Assembly (NCBI GenBank): GCA_021161465.1
Contig: JAGHAM010000008.1
Location: forward strand, 1 to 24,815
Origin: Candidatus Iainarchaeum sp.
GTDB lineage: Archaea > B1Sed10-29 > WALL01 > JAGHAM01
Length of the DNA stretch: 24,815 bases
Direction: 5' to 3'
Every line of letters begins with the position of its first letter. Positions within the stretch are counted from its first letter, which is position 1. The notes beneath the pieces were generated by a model. It did no database searches. It was not told the DNA's origin and saw only the letters and a list, made by a program, of their open reading frames with translations. Both the position numbers and the translations under genes were made by a program. Shown piece by piece: positions 3,257 through 9,872 of the stretch.

Positions 3257-3841
3257 TCAATACTCTTCGGACTGGAGCTCAAAATAACTCTTTGGGTGGC
3301 CACATGATGGGCATGCCTCTGGCGGCTCGGTGCCTTCATGGATGTAACCGCATTTCCTGCAAACCCAGTAAACTTTCTTCTCTTTCTTGAACACTGTATT
3401 GCCCTCCAGTTCCTTAAGCAGTTTCTTGTATCTCTCTTCATGATGCTTTTCTGCTACTGCTATGGCCCTTAACCTAGCTGCGATTTCTGGAAATCCCTCC
3501 TTCTCAGCAACATCGGCAAACTCAGGATACATCTCAGTGTTCTCATAGTTCTCACCAGCGATAGCCGCCTTTAGATTCTCAACAGTGTCACCAAGAGTCG
3601 TAGGCGCAACAGCCTCAACCTTAATCTCACTCAATTCTTCTCCACTTTTCTTCTCCAACTCGTTTATCAACCTGAAGAGCCATTTCGCGTGCTCTGTTTC
3701 GTTGTCCGCAGTAAGCATGAATATCTCAGCAATTTGTTCGTAACCTTCCTTCTTAGCGATTTTAGCATAAAATGTATATCTGTTCCTTGCCTGGCTTTCA
3801 CCAATAAAGGCTTTCGTTAGATTTTCAATTGTGTTGTTCAT
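3257..3841 (-). CDS. rbr: Rubrerythrin
   Basis: A 194-residue rubrerythrin. The N-terminal four-helix domain carries the diiron ligand motifs (E-S-Q-A-R near 15, E-x2-H near 50, E-N-Y-E near 97, and E-K-H-H-E near 130). The C-terminal rubredoxin-like domain has C-x2-C-G and C-P-S-C-G for a single iron. It reduces hydrogen peroxide with NAD(P)H- or rubredoxin-derived electrons in the cytoplasm of anaerobes. A GTG three codons upstream (3850) is open, but the ATG at 3841 has AGGTG six bases upstream and is chosen. A minus-strand TATA-like element lies at about 3870-3882. It is transcribed separately from the operon to its left, with a terminator-like hairpin between. Confidence 0.95.
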
Positions 3842-4880: not shown

Positions 4881-5807
4881 TTACTTTATTTCTCCCCATC
4901 CAATTATCCTTTGCTCTCCCGGTTTGGCAACGCGCGCGAATATGGCTTTCTGACCGGGCTCAGCGACGAGTGGCTTCTCAGACTTAACTATTGCAGTTCC
5001 ATCAATTTCCACTTCAACCTGTTTCCACTGCAACGCGGTGCATACGCGCATGAAGTTGTCTGTGAGCTTGTCCTTGAAAAAGGGGCTCCTCGTGAAGCTA
5101 ACAGGGAACTCGCTCTTGGGGGTTATGTCGCCCTCCATGCAAAGAATTGTCCCCCTTGGAACATCCTCCGGCTTGACACCCTTCAAAGCAAGACCAACCC
5201 TTGCTTTTGGACCTGCCATATCCTGATTTTTATCCTGCATCTGGATTGATTTAACCATACACTCATTCCCGGAAGGCTGCGCTACAAGCTTGTCGTAAGG
5301 CTTTATCTCACCCTGCAGAACAACCCCAAGCACAACAGTACCAACACTCTTAACCTCGAATGAATGGTCGATAAGCACTCTTGGGCTGCCATCCTTTGCC
5401 CCAATATCAAATTCCGAAAGCGTGGATTTTATCTCTGTTGCATTCTCAGGAACTTCCTTATAGTTTTCCACAACAGTACCCTTCACAACACGTGAAAGCA
5501 GGCTCCGGTCAACCAGTTCATCAACCACAAGGATGCCTTTGTCTGCATTCAACACGTTTAAGGTGAGTATAGTCTCGCCAAGTTTGTAATCCATCCAATC
5601 AGGAGTCACCTTAAGGATACAGACATCTGACATCATCGCAGGGAAGAACAAGCTTTGTATCTTATCGGGATAAGTCACTGGCTCAACGAAGGAGAATATG
5701 CCTTCATGGCTTGAATGGCTGTATAAGGCTATGTCTGTTTCCATATGTTTCTTTCCAAGTTCCCTTGCAATGGGCGCGCCGTAGCAGGCAGAGTTGATTG
5801 ACTGCAT
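4881..5807 (-). CDS. EF-Tu-like protein with degenerate G domain
   Basis: A 308-residue protein from ATG 5807. The first ~115 residues occupy the place of a translational GTPase G domain but have no P-loop (no G-x4-G-K-S/T) and no N-K-x-D. The middle part is a good EF-Tu domain 2: F-E-V-K-S-V-G-T-V-V-L-G-V-V-L-Q-G-E-I near 165-185, then P-R-G-T-I-L. The rest resembles domain 3. Such GTPase-dead EF-Tu/aSelB-like proteins occur across archaea and are usually annotated as EF-Tu domain 2 proteins; their role is not settled. Upstream in-frame codons to 5912 exist, but that stretch is low in conservation and contains a minus-strand TATA-like run (about 5828-5835), so the inner ATG is chosen. It cannot hydrolyse GTP in the ordinary way. 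Confidence 0.8.
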   Translation of the reverse strand: MQSINSACYGAPIARELGKKHMETDIALYSHSSHEGIFSFVEPVTYPDKIQSLFFPAMMSDVCILKVTPDWMDYKLGETILTLNVLNADKGILVVDELVDRSLLSRVVKGTVVENYKEVPENATEIKSTLSEFDIGAKDGSPRVLIDHSFEVKSVGTVVLGVVLQGEIKPYDKLVAQPSGNECMVKSIQMQDKNQDMAGPKARVGLALKGVKPEDVPRGTILCMEGDITPKSEFPVSFTRSPFFKDKLTDNFMRVCTALQWKQVEVEIDGTAIVKSEKPLVAEPGQKAIFARVAKPGEQRIIGWGEIK

Positions 5808-7054: not shown

Positions 7055-7092
7055 AGCGCTGGGGGTGCTGCGAGGAAGAACCTAGAAGCGCC
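7055..7092. repeat. 38-bp TA-island repeat, copy A
   Basis: First of three direct copies of a 38-bp element found between the toxin-antitoxin modules. The core on plus is GCTGGGGGTGCTGC. It matches copy C at 27 of 38 positions. It ends 8 bp before the abiEii stop codon. Its left end on the minus strand reads CCCCCAGCGCT, identical over 11 bases to the 3' end of the nearby tRNA-Ser gene. Confidence 0.75.
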
Positions 7093-7099
7093 AGTGAGG

Positions 7100-7858
7100 T
7101 CATTTACTTTTATAAGCAAACTCTTCTTGGATTTTCTTAATGACCGTAGTATAAGATACAGGTTTGTTCGTTAAATGATTGATATCTTCATCCCATCTCG
7201 AGTAGATCTTTCTAGCGTTTTTGAAGATCCTTTCGACATCAAAACTCTCGCCTGCTTCGGTCATTTTTTTATCAAGTAATCCTCTGTCGACATGGCATCC
7301 TTTTTCCAATAGATTATAGACATCGTAGTAGTCTCTGGGTTGGTTTCTCATTAGCATGGCTCTCATTTTTTCTGCTATTAGTTCTTCGGGGGAGATTGTC
7401 CTAATCTTAAAACCAGGGATTGAATCATAAAAGTGAGGTATTGTCTTTACTTCTGGTTTTCTGTGGACTGACGCTTTCCTGTTCACATCAAGAATAATAT
7501 GATTCTTCGAGAAACTGCTTTTATAAAAGATTTTCAGGCAGAAAAAGTTTTTTGTCTGGTTTTCGAATACGTAACCAGGAAAGATACTTTTGTTCTCATT
7601 TAAGATTTTGACTATTTCTCCCTTTGTCTTCTCTAAATTTCCGGTGCAAGTGAAATCTAGGTCTTCGCTGAGACGCGTGTGATTAAGGAATATTTTGTTC
7701 AGGGCGGTACCTCCCTTGAAGCAAATTCCGTCAACGTCCTTAAGCAGGTAGAGTAGTATTGTGAGGAAGTAGTCTTTCTCCAAGTAGATTAGATTGAACC
7801 CTGTCTTGCCTGCAAGGTGTTTTAGCTCCGACTTGCTAATCAACGTGATTTTAGCCAT
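7100..7858 (-). CDS. AbiEii/AbiGii-family nucleotidyltransferase toxin
   Basis: A 252-residue nucleotidyltransferase-fold protein. The active-site signature is K48-G-G-T-A-L-N-K followed by R-L-S-E-D66-L-D68-F, the paired aspartates that bind metal in this family. Members act as the toxin of type IV toxin-antitoxin or phage-abortive systems; relatives modify tRNA 3' ends with nucleotides. The gene overlaps the 3' end of its partner antitoxin by 19 bp, indicating translational coupling. Motifs and length look intact. It lies between repeat copies A and B, and its stop codon is 8 bp from copy A. The target in this organism is not visible. Confidence 0.92.
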   Translation of the reverse strand: MAKITLISKSELKHLAGKTGFNLIYLEKDYFLTILLYLLKDVDGICFKGGTALNKIFLNHTRLSEDLDFTCTGNLEKTKGEIVKILNENKSIFPGYVFENQTKNFFCLKIFYKSSFSKNHIILDVNRKASVHRKPEVKTIPHFYDSIPGFKIRTISPEELIAEKMRAMLMRNQPRDYYDVYNLLEKGCHVDRGLLDKKMTEAGESFDVERIFKNARKIYSRWDEDINHLTNKPVSYTTVIKKIQEEFAYKSK

Positions 7859-8337
7859 TTTTCAACCTTCTCTTTTGACAGTATCCTGAAAGAATGTCCC
7901 CCAATTTTTTTCTCCACAACTCCTTTCATGCTTTCTGGTCTTATTCTCTTGAAAACAAGGGTGAAACCAAAAATCTTTCTTTTCCCTTGCTTGTTTGTGC
8001 AAGCGACTTCTATCTGTGTGGGTATCTGGTCAACTAGACCCCAGTAATGGGCTGCGGATAATCCCTTGATAAAGTAGTTTTTCCCGTTGAAAATCTCGTC
8101 TGCGATTACGAAAGGGTGTTCTGCCCAGAATCCCCCTGAAGCTTTTACAGGAATGAGGAAGTACTTGGTTTTGTTAAGTTTCACTATTCGCTTTTTTTTC
8201 TTGAGTCTGTGCAGGTATACATTCATCTCGTTCTCGTTCTTGAAAAATTTTTTCGCGTCGTTTCGTGTGAAAAAGTATTTTTCTTTCAGTTCAAGAAAAG
8301 AAACAAGTCCTATTTCTTTACTTGAAATACCCTCCAT
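7840..8337 (-). CDS. AbiEi-type antitoxin / transcriptional regulator
   Basis: A 165-residue protein with an N-terminal winged-helix-like part (about 5-60: F-T-R-N-D-A-K-K-F-F, then basic K-K-K-K-R-I-V-K-L). The C-terminal AbiEi domain has the family landmarks S-A-A-H-Y-W-G-L and I-P-T-Q-I-E-V-A. These proteins silence the AbiEii toxin and repress the operon by binding promoter repeats. ATG at 8337 is chosen over the upstream TTG (8349) because GGTG sits six bases before it. A TATA-like run on minus is at about 8375-8390. It precedes and overlaps the toxin gene, the usual order. DNA-binding residues cannot be judged by eye. Confidence 0.87.
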   Translation of the reverse strand: MEGISSKEIGLVSFLELKEKYFFTRNDAKKFFKNENEMNVYLHRLKKKKRIVKLNKTKYFLIPVKASGGFWAEHPFVIADEIFNGKNYFIKGLSAAHYWGLVDQIPTQIEVACTNKQGKRKIFGFTLVFKRIRPESMKGVVEKKIGGHSFRILSKEKVEKWLKSR

Positions 8338-8410
8338 TTGATACACCAAAATTAACGTTTTTTTAATATTACTGTAACAAGTTTTATTTAATACTTTTGT
8401 TTATTATTTT

Positions 8411-8451
8411 CCTAGACCCCAAGCTGGGGGTGTTGCAAGACACTGTCTAGG
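8411..8451. repeat. Cruciform-forming sequence over repeat copy B
   Basis: Outer arms CCTAGA and TCTAGG enclose two small hairpins, CCCCA-AGC-TGGGG and GTGT-TGCAAG-ACAC. The whole can fold into a three-way junction. Only copy B of the 38-bp repeat has this extension. Confidence 0.5.
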
Positions 8452-8457
8452 AGCTCC
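8420..8457. repeat. 38-bp TA-island repeat, copy B
   Basis: Second direct copy, between the divergent AbiE and HicBA modules. It is identical to copy C over 23 consecutive bases (8421-8443) and matches 30 of 38 overall. Confidence 0.8.
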
Positions 8458-8468
8458 AAATCATTAAG

Positions 8469-8496
8469 CCTTAATTTAAGGGTAATTTTAAATATG
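8469..8496 (+). promoter_or_regulatory. hicBA promoter with upstream palindrome
   Basis: A 13-bp palindrome CCTTAATTTAAGG (8469-8481) lies directly upstream of a strong TATA box TTTTAAATATG (8486-8496). Transcription would start near 8516, leaving a short leader that holds the GGTG site used for hicB. The palindrome overlaps the place where transcription factor B binds and could be an operator for the HicB complex. Confidence 0.6.
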
Positions 8497-8528
8497 CTAT
8501 TACTGATAAGGTACTTGAAGGTGATTTT

Positions 8529-8804
8529 ACGGAACAAACTATACCATTACCAATAGTAATTACTAGAGAGGGTAAATGGTTTGTGGCATCCTGCCCAGTA
8601 TTGGATATAGCCACACAAGGCAAATCAGAGAAAGAAGTAAAAGAAAACATGGAAGACCTTATCAATGATTACATGAAGGACAAGGACACTCCAAAACCCA
8701 CTTTGAAAAAGATGATGTCAGTATCAGTATCATTAACTAATATCCCAATTTCTCTACCGGAGGTCGTTCATAATCGCAGGTCTTCGACAACTACCAAGGC
8801 ATAA
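8529..8804 (+). CDS. hicB: HicB-type antitoxin, apparent ACG start
   Basis: A 91-residue HicB-like protein: I-P-L-P-I-V-I-T-R-E-G-K-W-F-V-A-S-C-P forms the first strands and D-I-A-T-Q-G-K-S-E-K-E-V continues the partial RNase H fold that inhibits HicA. The reading frame is intact, but between the upstream in-frame TAA and the conserved strand there is no ATG, GTG or TTG. An ACG at 8529 stands five bases after GGTG (8520-8523), the same spacing as the ATG starts of neighbouring genes, and gives the expected N-terminus. The first canonical in-frame start, GTG at 8583, would delete the first strand. So the gene either starts on ACG or has lost its start (ATG to ACG). It is followed directly by hicA. 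Confidence 0.72.
   Translation, partial: TEQTIPLPIVITREGKWFVASCPVLDIATQGKSEKEVKENMEDLINDYMKDKDTPKPTLKKMMSVSVSLTNIPISLPEVVHNRRSSTTTKA
8759..8764 (+). promoter_or_regulatory. Strong Shine-Dalgarno site of hicA
   Basis: GGAGGT is a perfect anti-16S match and ends five bases before ATA at 8770. It decides where hicA must begin even though no ordinary start codon is there. Confidence 0.65.
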
Positions 8805-8991
8805 AGTAGAGAAAATCTTAAAAGACAACGGCTTCAAAAGAGTCAGGTCCAGCAAACACACTACCTACAAGAAAAAAGTATCAAGAAATAAAATCTTGAC
8901 TACATGGGTTCCGCACCACAAAACAGTCACTCTTTTTGTAATTCAACACATTATCAGGCAAACAGAAAAACCAAGGGAAGAATTTTACTAA
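8770..8991 (+). CDS. hicA: HicA-type mRNA interferase toxin, apparent ATA start
   Basis: A 73-residue HicA-like protein with the small double-stranded-RNA-binding fold. The sequence runs L-P-R-H-K-V-E-K-I-L-K-D-N-G-F-K-R-V-R, then S-K-H30-T-T-Y, with the catalytic His of the usual G-S-H motif, then W-V-P-H-H-K and I-R-Q-T. HicA cleaves mRNA at ribosomes or free RNA. It overlaps the end of hicB by 35 bp in the +1 frame. No ATG, GTG or TTG occurs in frame between the preceding stop and residue 46, yet an ideal GGAGGT stands five bases before ATA at 8770. The frame is otherwise undamaged. Its TAA stop is also the first three bases of repeat copy C. It may be silenced by a start mutation, or use ATA at low efficiency. 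Confidence 0.7.
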   Translation: MIAGLRQLPRHKVEKILKDNGFKRVRSSKHTTYKKKVSRNKILTTWVPHHKTVTLFVIQHIIRQTEKPREEFY

Positions 8992-9026
8992 GCTGGGGGT
9001 GTTGCAAGACACAACCTAATAGCGTC
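8989..9026. repeat. 38-bp TA-island repeat, copy C
   Basis: Third direct copy, overlapping the hicA stop codon at its left end and lying 5 bp from the relE stop at its right end. It supplies the stop of one module and the boundary of the next, so the array is packed without spare sequence. Confidence 0.8.
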
Positions 9027-9031
9027 AAAGG

Positions 9032-9280
9032 TTATTGTTTGTCCTTGTGGTATAAATCAAGAAAAACAACAGTGTCTTTGCTTGGGACATACAAATAGGA
9101 CAAACGGAAAGGAGCTACGTAAACTTCTCTGGTTCCTTTCCGTGAAAACCGCATCGGTTTTCCTATGCCAGGATTGGCAAGTATTTTAGCGATCTGTTTC
9201 TTGACTCTTTCTTTCAATGCTTTGTCTTTTATTTTCTTGACCCGTCTCTTGAAAACCGTGTCAAAAGCAACTTTTACCAT
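9032..9280 (-). CDS. RelE/ParE-superfamily toxin
   Basis: An 82-residue basic protein of the RelE fold. It opens with two charged helices (F-K-R-R-V-K-K-I-K, then A-L-K-E-R-V-K-K-Q-I), then has the strand set G-T-R-E-V-Y-V-A-P-F-R-L-S-Y-L and V-V-F-L-D-L-Y-H-K-D at the C-terminus. The R-L-S-Y and Y-H-K-D ends are typical of RelE-type ribosome-dependent mRNA interferases; ParE-type gyrase inhibition cannot be excluded. Its ATG overlaps the end of the AbrB-type antitoxin gene by 7 bp, so the two are translationally coupled. Its stop is 5 bp from repeat copy C. No residue is obviously missing. Confidence 0.88.
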   Translation of the reverse strand: MVKVAFDTVFKRRVKKIKDKALKERVKKQIAKILANPGIGKPMRFSRKGTREVYVAPFRLSYLYVPSKDTVVFLDLYHKDKQ

Positions 9281-9543
9281 GTTCCAAGCTCTTCCAAAAA
9301 CTCTTTTTTACTCATCTTCTTAAACTTACCTTTCTCATAGCGTTTAAGCACTTCTTCAGTTCGCTCAGCGAAACGAATGTCCTCAGCTATATTCTCCCCG
9401 AAGCCTTTGACACTCCTTAGGATGAACTTATTGCCACTCCTAATAACTATAAAGTCTTCTCCTTTCTTGAAACCCTTACGCATATCGCTAGGGATAACAA
9501 TCTGACCCTTTGAACTCATTCTGGTGACGCTAATATTAGACAT
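9274..9543 (-). CDS. AbrB/SpoVT-type antitoxin
   Basis: An 89-residue protein. The N-terminal swapped-hairpin AbrB domain reads S-V-T-R-M-S-S-K-G-Q-I-V-I-P-S-D-M-R-K-G-F and continues to about residue 46. A charged C-terminal helix (from 55) would bind and neutralise the toxin. AbrB-type antitoxins form dimers that bind palindromic operators and repress their own operon. The ATG at 9543 is leaderless, with TATA-like ATTTAAGG on plus at about 9568-9575 and a perfect 16-bp palindrome between TATA and start. It overlaps relE by 7 bp. It is the module nearest the tRNA-Ser gene. Confidence 0.9.
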   Translation of the reverse strand: MSNISVTRMSSKGQIVIPSDMRKGFKKGEDFIVIRSGNKFILRSVKGFGENIAEDIRFAERTEEVLKRYEKGKFKKMSKKEFLEELGTW

Positions 9544-9546
9544 GAA

Positions 9547-9562
9547 GTAAGATATATCTTAC
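9547..9562. promoter_or_regulatory. Palindromic operator of the AbrB/RelE operon
   Basis: GTAAGATATATCTTAC is a perfect 16-bp palindrome placed between the TATA box (about 9568-9575) and the ATG at 9543. Protein bound here would block RNA polymerase at the start site. Autoregulation by the AbrB-type antitoxin, with or without RelE, is the natural reading. Confidence 0.7.
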
Positions 9563-9625
9563 ATCATATTTAAGGCTTTCGCTGTATCTTTCCGAGAAAA
9601 AAGAATATGAGCGCTGGGGGCGAGA

Positions 9626-9687
9626 TTCTCCATCCCTCAAAGGAGAAGGGCTTATAAGGGAGGAGGGAACGTGTCCCTCCTCCTTAT
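9626..9687 (-). other. Second intron of tRNA-Ser(GCU), in the T-loop (about 59/60)
   Basis: About 62 nt interrupt the T-loop between TTCAAA and T60. The insert is dominated by a 14-15-bp hairpin (ATAAGG-AGGAGGGA against its complement, loop CACG) and a second stem TTCTCC/GGAGAA. The bulge-helix-bulge is weaker than at the anticodon site, with three pairs in the central helix, so the exact ends could shift by one or two bases. The purine/pyrimidine-rich hairpin with a T-run on plus also resembles a terminator, which I consider the lesser reading. Confidence 0.62.
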
Positions 9688-9719
9688 TTTGAACTCGCGT
9701 GAGCTAACGCTCACCGGCT

Positions 9720-9808
9720 ATCCATAACCGACGCTCATAACCGTGCACTCTTGAACCGTGCGCTTGAGCGAAGCGAAACGCACAAAGCGTTAACCGATTT
9801 TGCGGTTA
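9720..9808 (-). other. First intron of tRNA-Ser(GCU), position 37/38
   Basis: An 89-nt intron at the canonical site, bounded by bulges TAT and ATA and outer helix AACC/GGTT; the central helix is relaxed, with two wobbles and one mismatch. It carries one copy of the two-hairpin module (9758-9808) also present twice in the tRNA-Thr intron. CGGTTATG occurs twice in tandem near its 3' end. Confidence 0.78.
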
Positions 9809-9830
9809 TAGCAGGCCGGCGCAATACCGA

Positions 9831-9872
9831 GCTATGCGACCCCAGCTTGTGGAATCTTATGGAGAGTCTTGT
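9831..9872. repeat. 42-bp direct repeat, left copy (tRNA-Ser 5' end plus upstream)
   Basis: It comprises the first 16 bases of the tRNA-Ser gene and 26 bp of its upstream region. The right copy is at 12081-12122 in the same orientation, with 37 of 42 identical. The two copies bound a 2.2-kb segment holding two genes. Confidence 0.75.

Follow-up and report, generated by a model that had tools for sequence, protein, structure and literature searches.

The closest described counterparts of the locus considered here are the additive flexible genomic islands (fGIs) of Ca. Actinomarinales (PMC7771536) and fGI-2 of the Methylophilaceae (PMC10872708), which grow by repeated insertion: gene cassettes are targeted to tRNAs, and copies of the tRNA end remain as repeats. 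In integron arrays, including the archaeal clusters of attC sites lacking an integrase (CALINs; PMC9668308), single genes or toxin-antitoxin (TA) pairs are each accompanied by one site, all sites are in direct orientation, and there is a fixed point of entry. The pdif (dif) modules of Acinetobacter plasmids (PMC6449649, PMC13141974) are mobilized sets of genes that lie between short sites with inverted arms, contain no recombinase and depend on Xer in trans. Serial integration into tRNA genes with later loss of the integrase is known in archaea, where a tRNA supplies attB and elements stand in tandem at one locus (PMC8371274). Tycheposons are described as tRNA-bounded elements that carry a tyrosine recombinase and cargo genes (PMC10872708). 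Features of each recur in an island of TA modules separated by three copies (A, B, and C) of a 38-bp repeat and ending at a tRNA-Ser(GCT) gene, in a 24,815-nt stretch of Candidatus Iainarchaeum sp. (contig JAGHAM010000008.1, referred to below as the window; assembly GCA_021161465.1). The host is assigned to the Archaea on its archaeal signal recognition particle RNA and its tRNA introns.

The island is likely to be a tRNA-anchored cassette array built by site-specific accretion at the tRNA 3' end. On this view a site-specific recombinase, most likely of the tyrosine family, would have joined small cassettes serially to the tRNA-Ser(GCT) 3' end; the cassettes themselves, in this case TA modules, encode no recombinase. 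The 38-bp repeat would be a compound attachment site travelling with each cassette, made up of a core and the tRNA tail CCCCCAGC; because this site ends with the tRNA tail, insertion would leave the tRNA intact. Recombinase action, a crossover point, a circular intermediate and help in trans are what we infer; the repeats, their tRNA tail and the recurrence of the cassettes elsewhere are described below.

The 38-bp repeats and the tRNA anchor

Read in tRNA orientation, the array runs tRNA, parE/abrB, C, hicBA, B, abiE, A, and old trailer (Table 1), that is, three cassettes with three sites and the tRNA end as entry point, which is the topology of an integron. All repeat copies point one way although gene directions differ, and B lies between two divergent gene starts. 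A and C are identical at 27 of 38 positions, and B and C at 30 of 38, including a run of 23 bases. Contacts with the genes are close: copy A ends 7 bp from the abiEii stop, and copy C overlaps the hicA stop (TAA, 8989-8991) and ends 5 bp from the parE stop. An earlier reading made from the letters of the window alone (the sequence-only reading) had given the positions of the copies, their single direction (all on the + strand), both the A/C identity and the 23-base B/C run, and these contacts; all were reproduced, with the abiEii gap corrected from 8 bp.

The repeat is specific to the array within its own genome (G000, a 976-kb assembly), where the 17-base core pattern GCTGGGGGTGYTGCRAG occurs three times, always inside the array. 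A covariance model built from seven copies, with matches above E ~0.1 disregarded, recovers its own copies and then reaches the next G000 match only at E=0.08. The repeat is also present in a relative from the same family (G009). Searches of genome-contig and viral-contig collections with the repeat pattern gave only chance-like matches, and a scan of the collections with the G009-type consensus gave none. A scan with a pattern for the trailer hairpin returned a single match, within a gene, which was judged to be chance.

The conserved end of the repeat is the tRNA's own. The last 8 bases of the tRNA (CCCCCAGC) form the end of A, B, and C in tRNA orientation; the match to the tRNA end is 11 bases long in copy A (AGCGCTGGGGG, + strand) and 8 in B and C. 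Across the window, GCTGGGGG has four occurrences where 0.86 would be expected, one each at A, B, C, and the tRNA end. The tRNA gene that the sequence-only reading had placed at the end of the array is real, and can now be assigned to the minus strand, so oriented that the array lies on its 3' side. Plain ARAGORN and Rfam runs on the window missed it until an insert in the T-loop was taken out. By eye, the minus strand reads GCTGGGG...CCCCAGC, with the T-arm halves GCGAGTTCAAA and ATCTCGC 61 nt apart; once these 61 nt are removed, ARAGORN reports a tRNA-Ser(GCT) of 86 bases with an 89-nt intron in the anticodon loop. The T-loop insert (window 9627-9687) is absent from the tRNA-Ser(GCT) of G009 and of G015, a genome from another family.

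In tRNA orientation the site can be written GGCGCTANTAG-N7-CTNGCAGCACC-CCCAGC, in which a 29-bp core, whose 11-bp inverted arms match imperfectly, leads into the tRNA tail. The 11+7+11 dyad has a mean of 7.4 of 11 arm matches, against about 3 in shuffled sequences, with single copies ranging from P<0.001 to P=0.11. Six of the seven array sites in G009 have ACCWGGA as their 7-bp spacer. TTTCCGCGGAAA adjoins four G009 sites, and this palindrome also occurs, more or less exactly, near boundaries in the arrays of three genomes from other families (G012, G013, and G015). Dyad, spacer, and adjoining palindrome resemble, as sequences, the sites of recombinases.

Table 1. Features of the array, in window coordinates, with the evidence for each.
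Feature	Position	Strand	Evidence or remark
Repeat A	7055-7092	+	Outermost putative compound site; in tRNA orientation GCGCTTTACC comes next and resembles a tRNA trailer
AbiEii toxin gene	7100-7858	-	Pfam PF08843 1.7e-31; PADLOC 1.1e-42
AbiEi-like antitoxin gene	7840-8349	-	PADLOC 2.2e-24; 83/79/75% amino acid identity in G009/G012/G015
Repeat B	8420-8457	+	Putative compound site, abiEi / hicB boundary
Putative HicB-like antitoxin frame	8475-8804	+	Position and motif by eye
HicA-like toxin gene	8773-8991	+	Pfam PF07927 2.2e-6
Repeat C	8989-9026	+	Putative compound site, hicA / parE/abrB boundary
ParE/RelE-like toxin gene (cassette nearest tRNA)	9032-9280	-	Pfam PF05016 1.5e-5; 84% amino acid identity to G009 copy
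AbrB/MazE-like antitoxin gene (ParE/RelE cassette)	9274-9543	-	Pfam PF04014 2.5e-6; 75-78% amino acid identity in G009 and G015, 60% in G013
tRNA 3' end and first trailer bases, AGCGCTGGGGG	9610-9620	+	Proposed insertion site (attB); 8 bp in common with B and C, 11 bp with A
tRNA-Ser(GCT) gene, array anchor	9612-9846	-	ARAGORN once T-loop insert removed; 3' end toward array
tRNA-Ser(GCT) parts	exon 9846-9809; anticodon-loop intron 9808-9720; exon 9719-9688; T-loop insert 9687-9627; last exon 9626-9612	-	

Of the three TA modules proposed in the sequence-only reading, abiE, the HicA toxin, and parE/abrB are supported by profiles, while the HicB frame has no match in Pfam, NCBIfam, or PADLOC and was recognized by eye only. 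No ATG, GTG, or TTG start was found at a plausible place for the hicB and hicA frames (8475-8991), so that either rare start codons are used or the module has decayed.

Two further RNA features lie elsewhere in the window. On the minus strand, positions 1-236 hold the 5' portion of an intron-rich tRNA whose acceptor and anticodon loop point to tRNA-Thr(CGT); the contig start cuts it in the T-arm, and a contig break at a tRNA 3' end hints at more tRNA-end repeats past that point. A weak match to a C/D-box sRNA (Rfam sR24, 20.8 bits, under the gathering score) is located at 1119-1158, also on the minus strand.

Cassettes in related genomes

G012, G013, and G015 are from other families of the same order as G000 and G009, and all genomes compared are incomplete assemblies (G000 ~93% and G009 ~88% complete). 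Between G000 and G009, DNA identity is 80% over window positions 7099-8441 and 78% over 8992-9602, in each case ending at or inside sites; the hicBA unit between these two blocks has no match in G009. The repeat-bounded cassettes of G009 include abiE, parE/abrB, and two further TA-like units. On contig C35 the order is EF-Tu-like gene (homologous to window 4881-5807), repeat D1, parE/abrB, repeat D2, and Cdd1-like gene, and on contig C37 it is DUF3795, repeat E2, abiE, repeat E1, LDH-family gene, and tRNA-Ser(GCT). On contig C48 the covariance model finds a repeat, a three-gene unit without any Pfam match, and a second repeat, followed by a VapB-like and PIN pair, a copy of the tRNA-Ser 3' end and trailer, a DEAD helicase, a degenerate repeat, and a ferredoxin/flavodoxin gene. 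C48 and C37 are probably one array, as judged from a 127-bp overlap. The real tRNA-Ser 3' end with its trailer and the copy form a direct repeat of ~48 bp that brackets ~6 kb. G000 and G009 differ in how the cassettes are ordered with respect to the EF-Tu-like gene and the tRNA. On C35, ARAGORN calls a tRNA-Ser(CGA) whose acceptor and anticodon loop look like those of tRNA-Thr(CGT); this call was not used.

The same cassettes occur in other families, where they lie near copies of the 3' ends of their own anchor tRNAs. The whole abiE unit has 72-74% DNA identity in G012 and G015; it sits behind tRNA-Thr(TGT) in the former and inside a tRNA-Thr(CGT) array in the latter. Homologs of parE/abrB are found behind tRNA-Ser(GCT) in G013 and, in two copies, behind tRNA-Ser(TGA) in G015. 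The tRNA-Thr(CGT) array of G015 (G015:C12:74873-103110) extends over 28 kb and contains 13 further copies of the tRNA end CCTCCCGAGGCTC (13 bp, at most 1 mismatch), all on the same strand and none on the other, against a mean of 0.03 in shuffles. Most of its intervals hold genes and some are gene-less; the contents include an isochorismatase, a TFIIB-like gene, a CrtC/UbiA (carotenoid) operon, an AAA_14/DUF4143 ATPase, a peptidase, abiE with other genes, and a tyrosine recombinase, among others.

The tRNA-Ser(GCT) of G015 has no intron; copies of its 3' end stand behind it at positions 3402, 5638, 6020, and 7326 of locus L048, and the intervals contain an ATPase and a DUF523-type gene, a gene for a small membrane protein, and a Fic gene. 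In G011 there is one tRNA-Ser(GCT) end copy of ~22 bp, ~90 bp behind the tRNA. Content downstream of tRNA-Ser(GCT) differs among G000, G009, G013, G014, and G015. Two more tRNA-end recurrences were seen: in G014 the 3' end and trailer of a tRNA-Ser(GGA) are copied ~118 bp downstream with a gene-less interval (L094 4631-4880), and in G012 a different contig, C22, carries at its end a second copy of the tRNA-Ser(GCT) 3' half together with the last part of the intron (L098 968-1107; L099 ~4625), a pattern to be expected from an insertion or an assembly break there.

Candidate recombinase

A search for tyrosine recombinases with PF00589 over 19 genomes gave matches in seven. The 389-aa protein encoded inside the G015 tRNA-Thr array combines an N-terminal SAM-like domain with a catalytic tyrosine recombinase domain and a zinc ribbon. 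Among NCBIfam models it matches archaeal XerA best, with a score of 131 bits (under the model cut-off of 220). A relative with 40% identity, cut by a contig end, starts ~43 bp behind tRNA-Ser(GCT) in G014. In G009 there is a truncated gene, preceded by a copy of the tRNA-Thr 3' end, and since its first 32 residues match the G015/G014 family, the G009 lineage probably once had the enzyme.

The sequence-only reading had taken the locus for a cassette array, and this holds: the same TA units, cut at the repeats, are found in other contexts in relatives. It has to be amended in that the tRNA anchors the array and supplies the conserved end of the repeat. Its suggestion of a new way of stacking TA modules gives way to a variant of cassette accretion at tRNA 3' ends. 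Nor is the system specific to TA modules, since relatives carry ATPases, Fic, isochorismatase, a carotenoid operon, a helicase, and other genes; besides the further TA-like units, there are single-gene arrays with the same kind of boundary. The lack of an integrase noted for the window extends to the whole G000 assembly, as far as PF00589 is concerned; in relatives, a tyrosine recombinase does stand nearby, inside the G015 array and behind tRNA-Ser(GCT) in G014.

Weighing the explanations

Several observations weigh against site-specific accretion at the tRNA. PF00589 has no match in G000 or G009, and neither serine recombinases (PF00239) nor Y1 transposases (PF01797) were found in five genomes searched. 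The spacers of A, B, and C are unlike each other, and the tRNA-derived part of the window sites amounts to only 8-11 bp. All comparisons are between genera or families, with no single insertion or excision event caught and no clean pair of strains with an empty site, and cassette boundaries in the relatives were read with the motif already in mind. The parE/abrB cassette is beside the EF-Tu-like gene in G009 and within the same region as that gene in G000, so that ancestral presence and rearrangement could account for part of the order differences; the join of C48 and C37 depends on their contig overlap; and assembly errors in metagenome-assembled genomes (MAGs) could misplace repeats. The missing recombinase and diverged spacers argue against an array that is active by itself. 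With three sites that have diverged from one another and no recombinase of the searched families in G000, the window array is probably fixed by now; otherwise its movement would depend on help in trans or on homologous recombination between repeats.

Homologous recombination might also explain more than this: if old elements inserted at the tRNA had decayed, leftover repeats could let units be swapped, duplicated, and lost with no dedicated site-specific system. The lack of a recombinase in G000 and the presence of only a truncated gene in G009 would fit, as would the homogenised look of B and C within their genome (the 23-bp run) and the greater similarity of the G009 sites to one another than of the G000 sites among themselves. 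However, 38 bp is short for such exchange, the boundaries are precise, the same cassettes stand behind different tRNAs with different tRNA tails, and a recombinase gene lies inside the G015 array, which together make this explanation unlikely. It is less likely still, and would be surprising, that the repeat is a mobile palindrome (a repetitive extragenic palindromic [REP] sequence, an IS200/IS605-type hairpin, or a miniature inverted-repeat transposable element) inserted between genes. The copies are indeed short imperfect palindromes and some are solitary (G009:C36:743, G011:C6:1513), but there are just 3 to ~9 per genome, they coincide with the limits of shared cassettes and carry the neighboring tRNA's tail, and the absence of Y1 transposases from the five genomes speaks against membership in the IS200/IS605/REP group.

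Hardly any weight can be given to a CALIN, that is, an integron attC cassette cluster without integrase as reported for archaeal MAGs, even though array topology, TA cargo, and hairpin-forming sites are like those of integron cassettes and TA-rich archaeal CALINs are on record (PMC9668308). Inspection of 13 copies showed no RYYYAAC...GTTRRRY boxes, in agreement with the sequence-only reading that the repeat is not an attC; on folding, the copies form one short 7+2-bp stem; and the conserved end of the site is a tRNA tail. The same hairpin potential, with z-scores mostly weak, and the location of A and C directly past stop codons might suggest a transcription terminator or structured RNA element of the TA genes. 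This too is most improbable, given that B is between divergent gene starts, that repeat direction is uniform despite mixed gene directions, that near-identical sites stand beside unrelated genes, that loop bases are kept in G009 (ACCWGGA), and that no pair in the stem has a change on both sides.

Relation to described systems and implications

As in additive islands, the locus begins at a complete tRNA gene, has tRNA-end repeats in the same orientation (short in the window, 8-11 bp), and varies in content among relatives. It differs in being archaeal, in having TA-module cassettes and, in one family, a compound site with a 29-bp palindromic core, and in that one array contains a XerA-like integrase and the same cassette recurs behind more than one kind of tRNA gene. 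With respect to integrons, the entry point here is a tRNA 3' end, no intI was detected (no PF00589 in G000 or G009), and attC boxes were not seen by inspection. Sites of pdif type are 28 bp long with a 6-bp spacer between 11-bp arms, and their modules are flanked in inverse orientation; the sites here are all in one direction, GC-rich, and equipped with a tRNA tail, and Xer was not found with PF00589 in G000 or G009, at the completeness given above. The array works like an integron or dif-module array, yet is not filed under either because no intI or Xer gene was found and attC boxes are missing. In contrast to the tandem elements of other archaea (PMC8371274), the units are 0.5-1.4 kb long, each a single TA module, and contain neither replication genes nor virus genes. 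Tycheposons are described as measuring 4-200 kb and having their own recombinase (PMC10872708), whereas the window array has none; there is one in the G015 tRNA-Thr array. As far as the literature was searched, the compound site, TA cassettes as units, and the occurrence of one cassette behind different tRNA genes are new.

A bolder proposal, for now tentative and rather more doubtful than accretion itself, is that of an archaeal counterpart to the integron, in which a XerA-like zinc-ribbon integrase would capture circular single-gene or TA cassettes at several tRNA 3' ends via the compound site, and cassettes would be exchanged between tRNA anchors across genera and families. If accretion at the tRNA is the right explanation, a concrete site and a candidate recombinase are available for testing. 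A mobile-element origin has been proposed for extra tRNA introns (PMC3293823), and the anchor tRNA with its T-loop insert, set beside its G009 and G015 counterparts, may link tRNA introns to integration. On the accretion explanation, small-genome archaea could collect TA and other accessory genes cassette by cassette.

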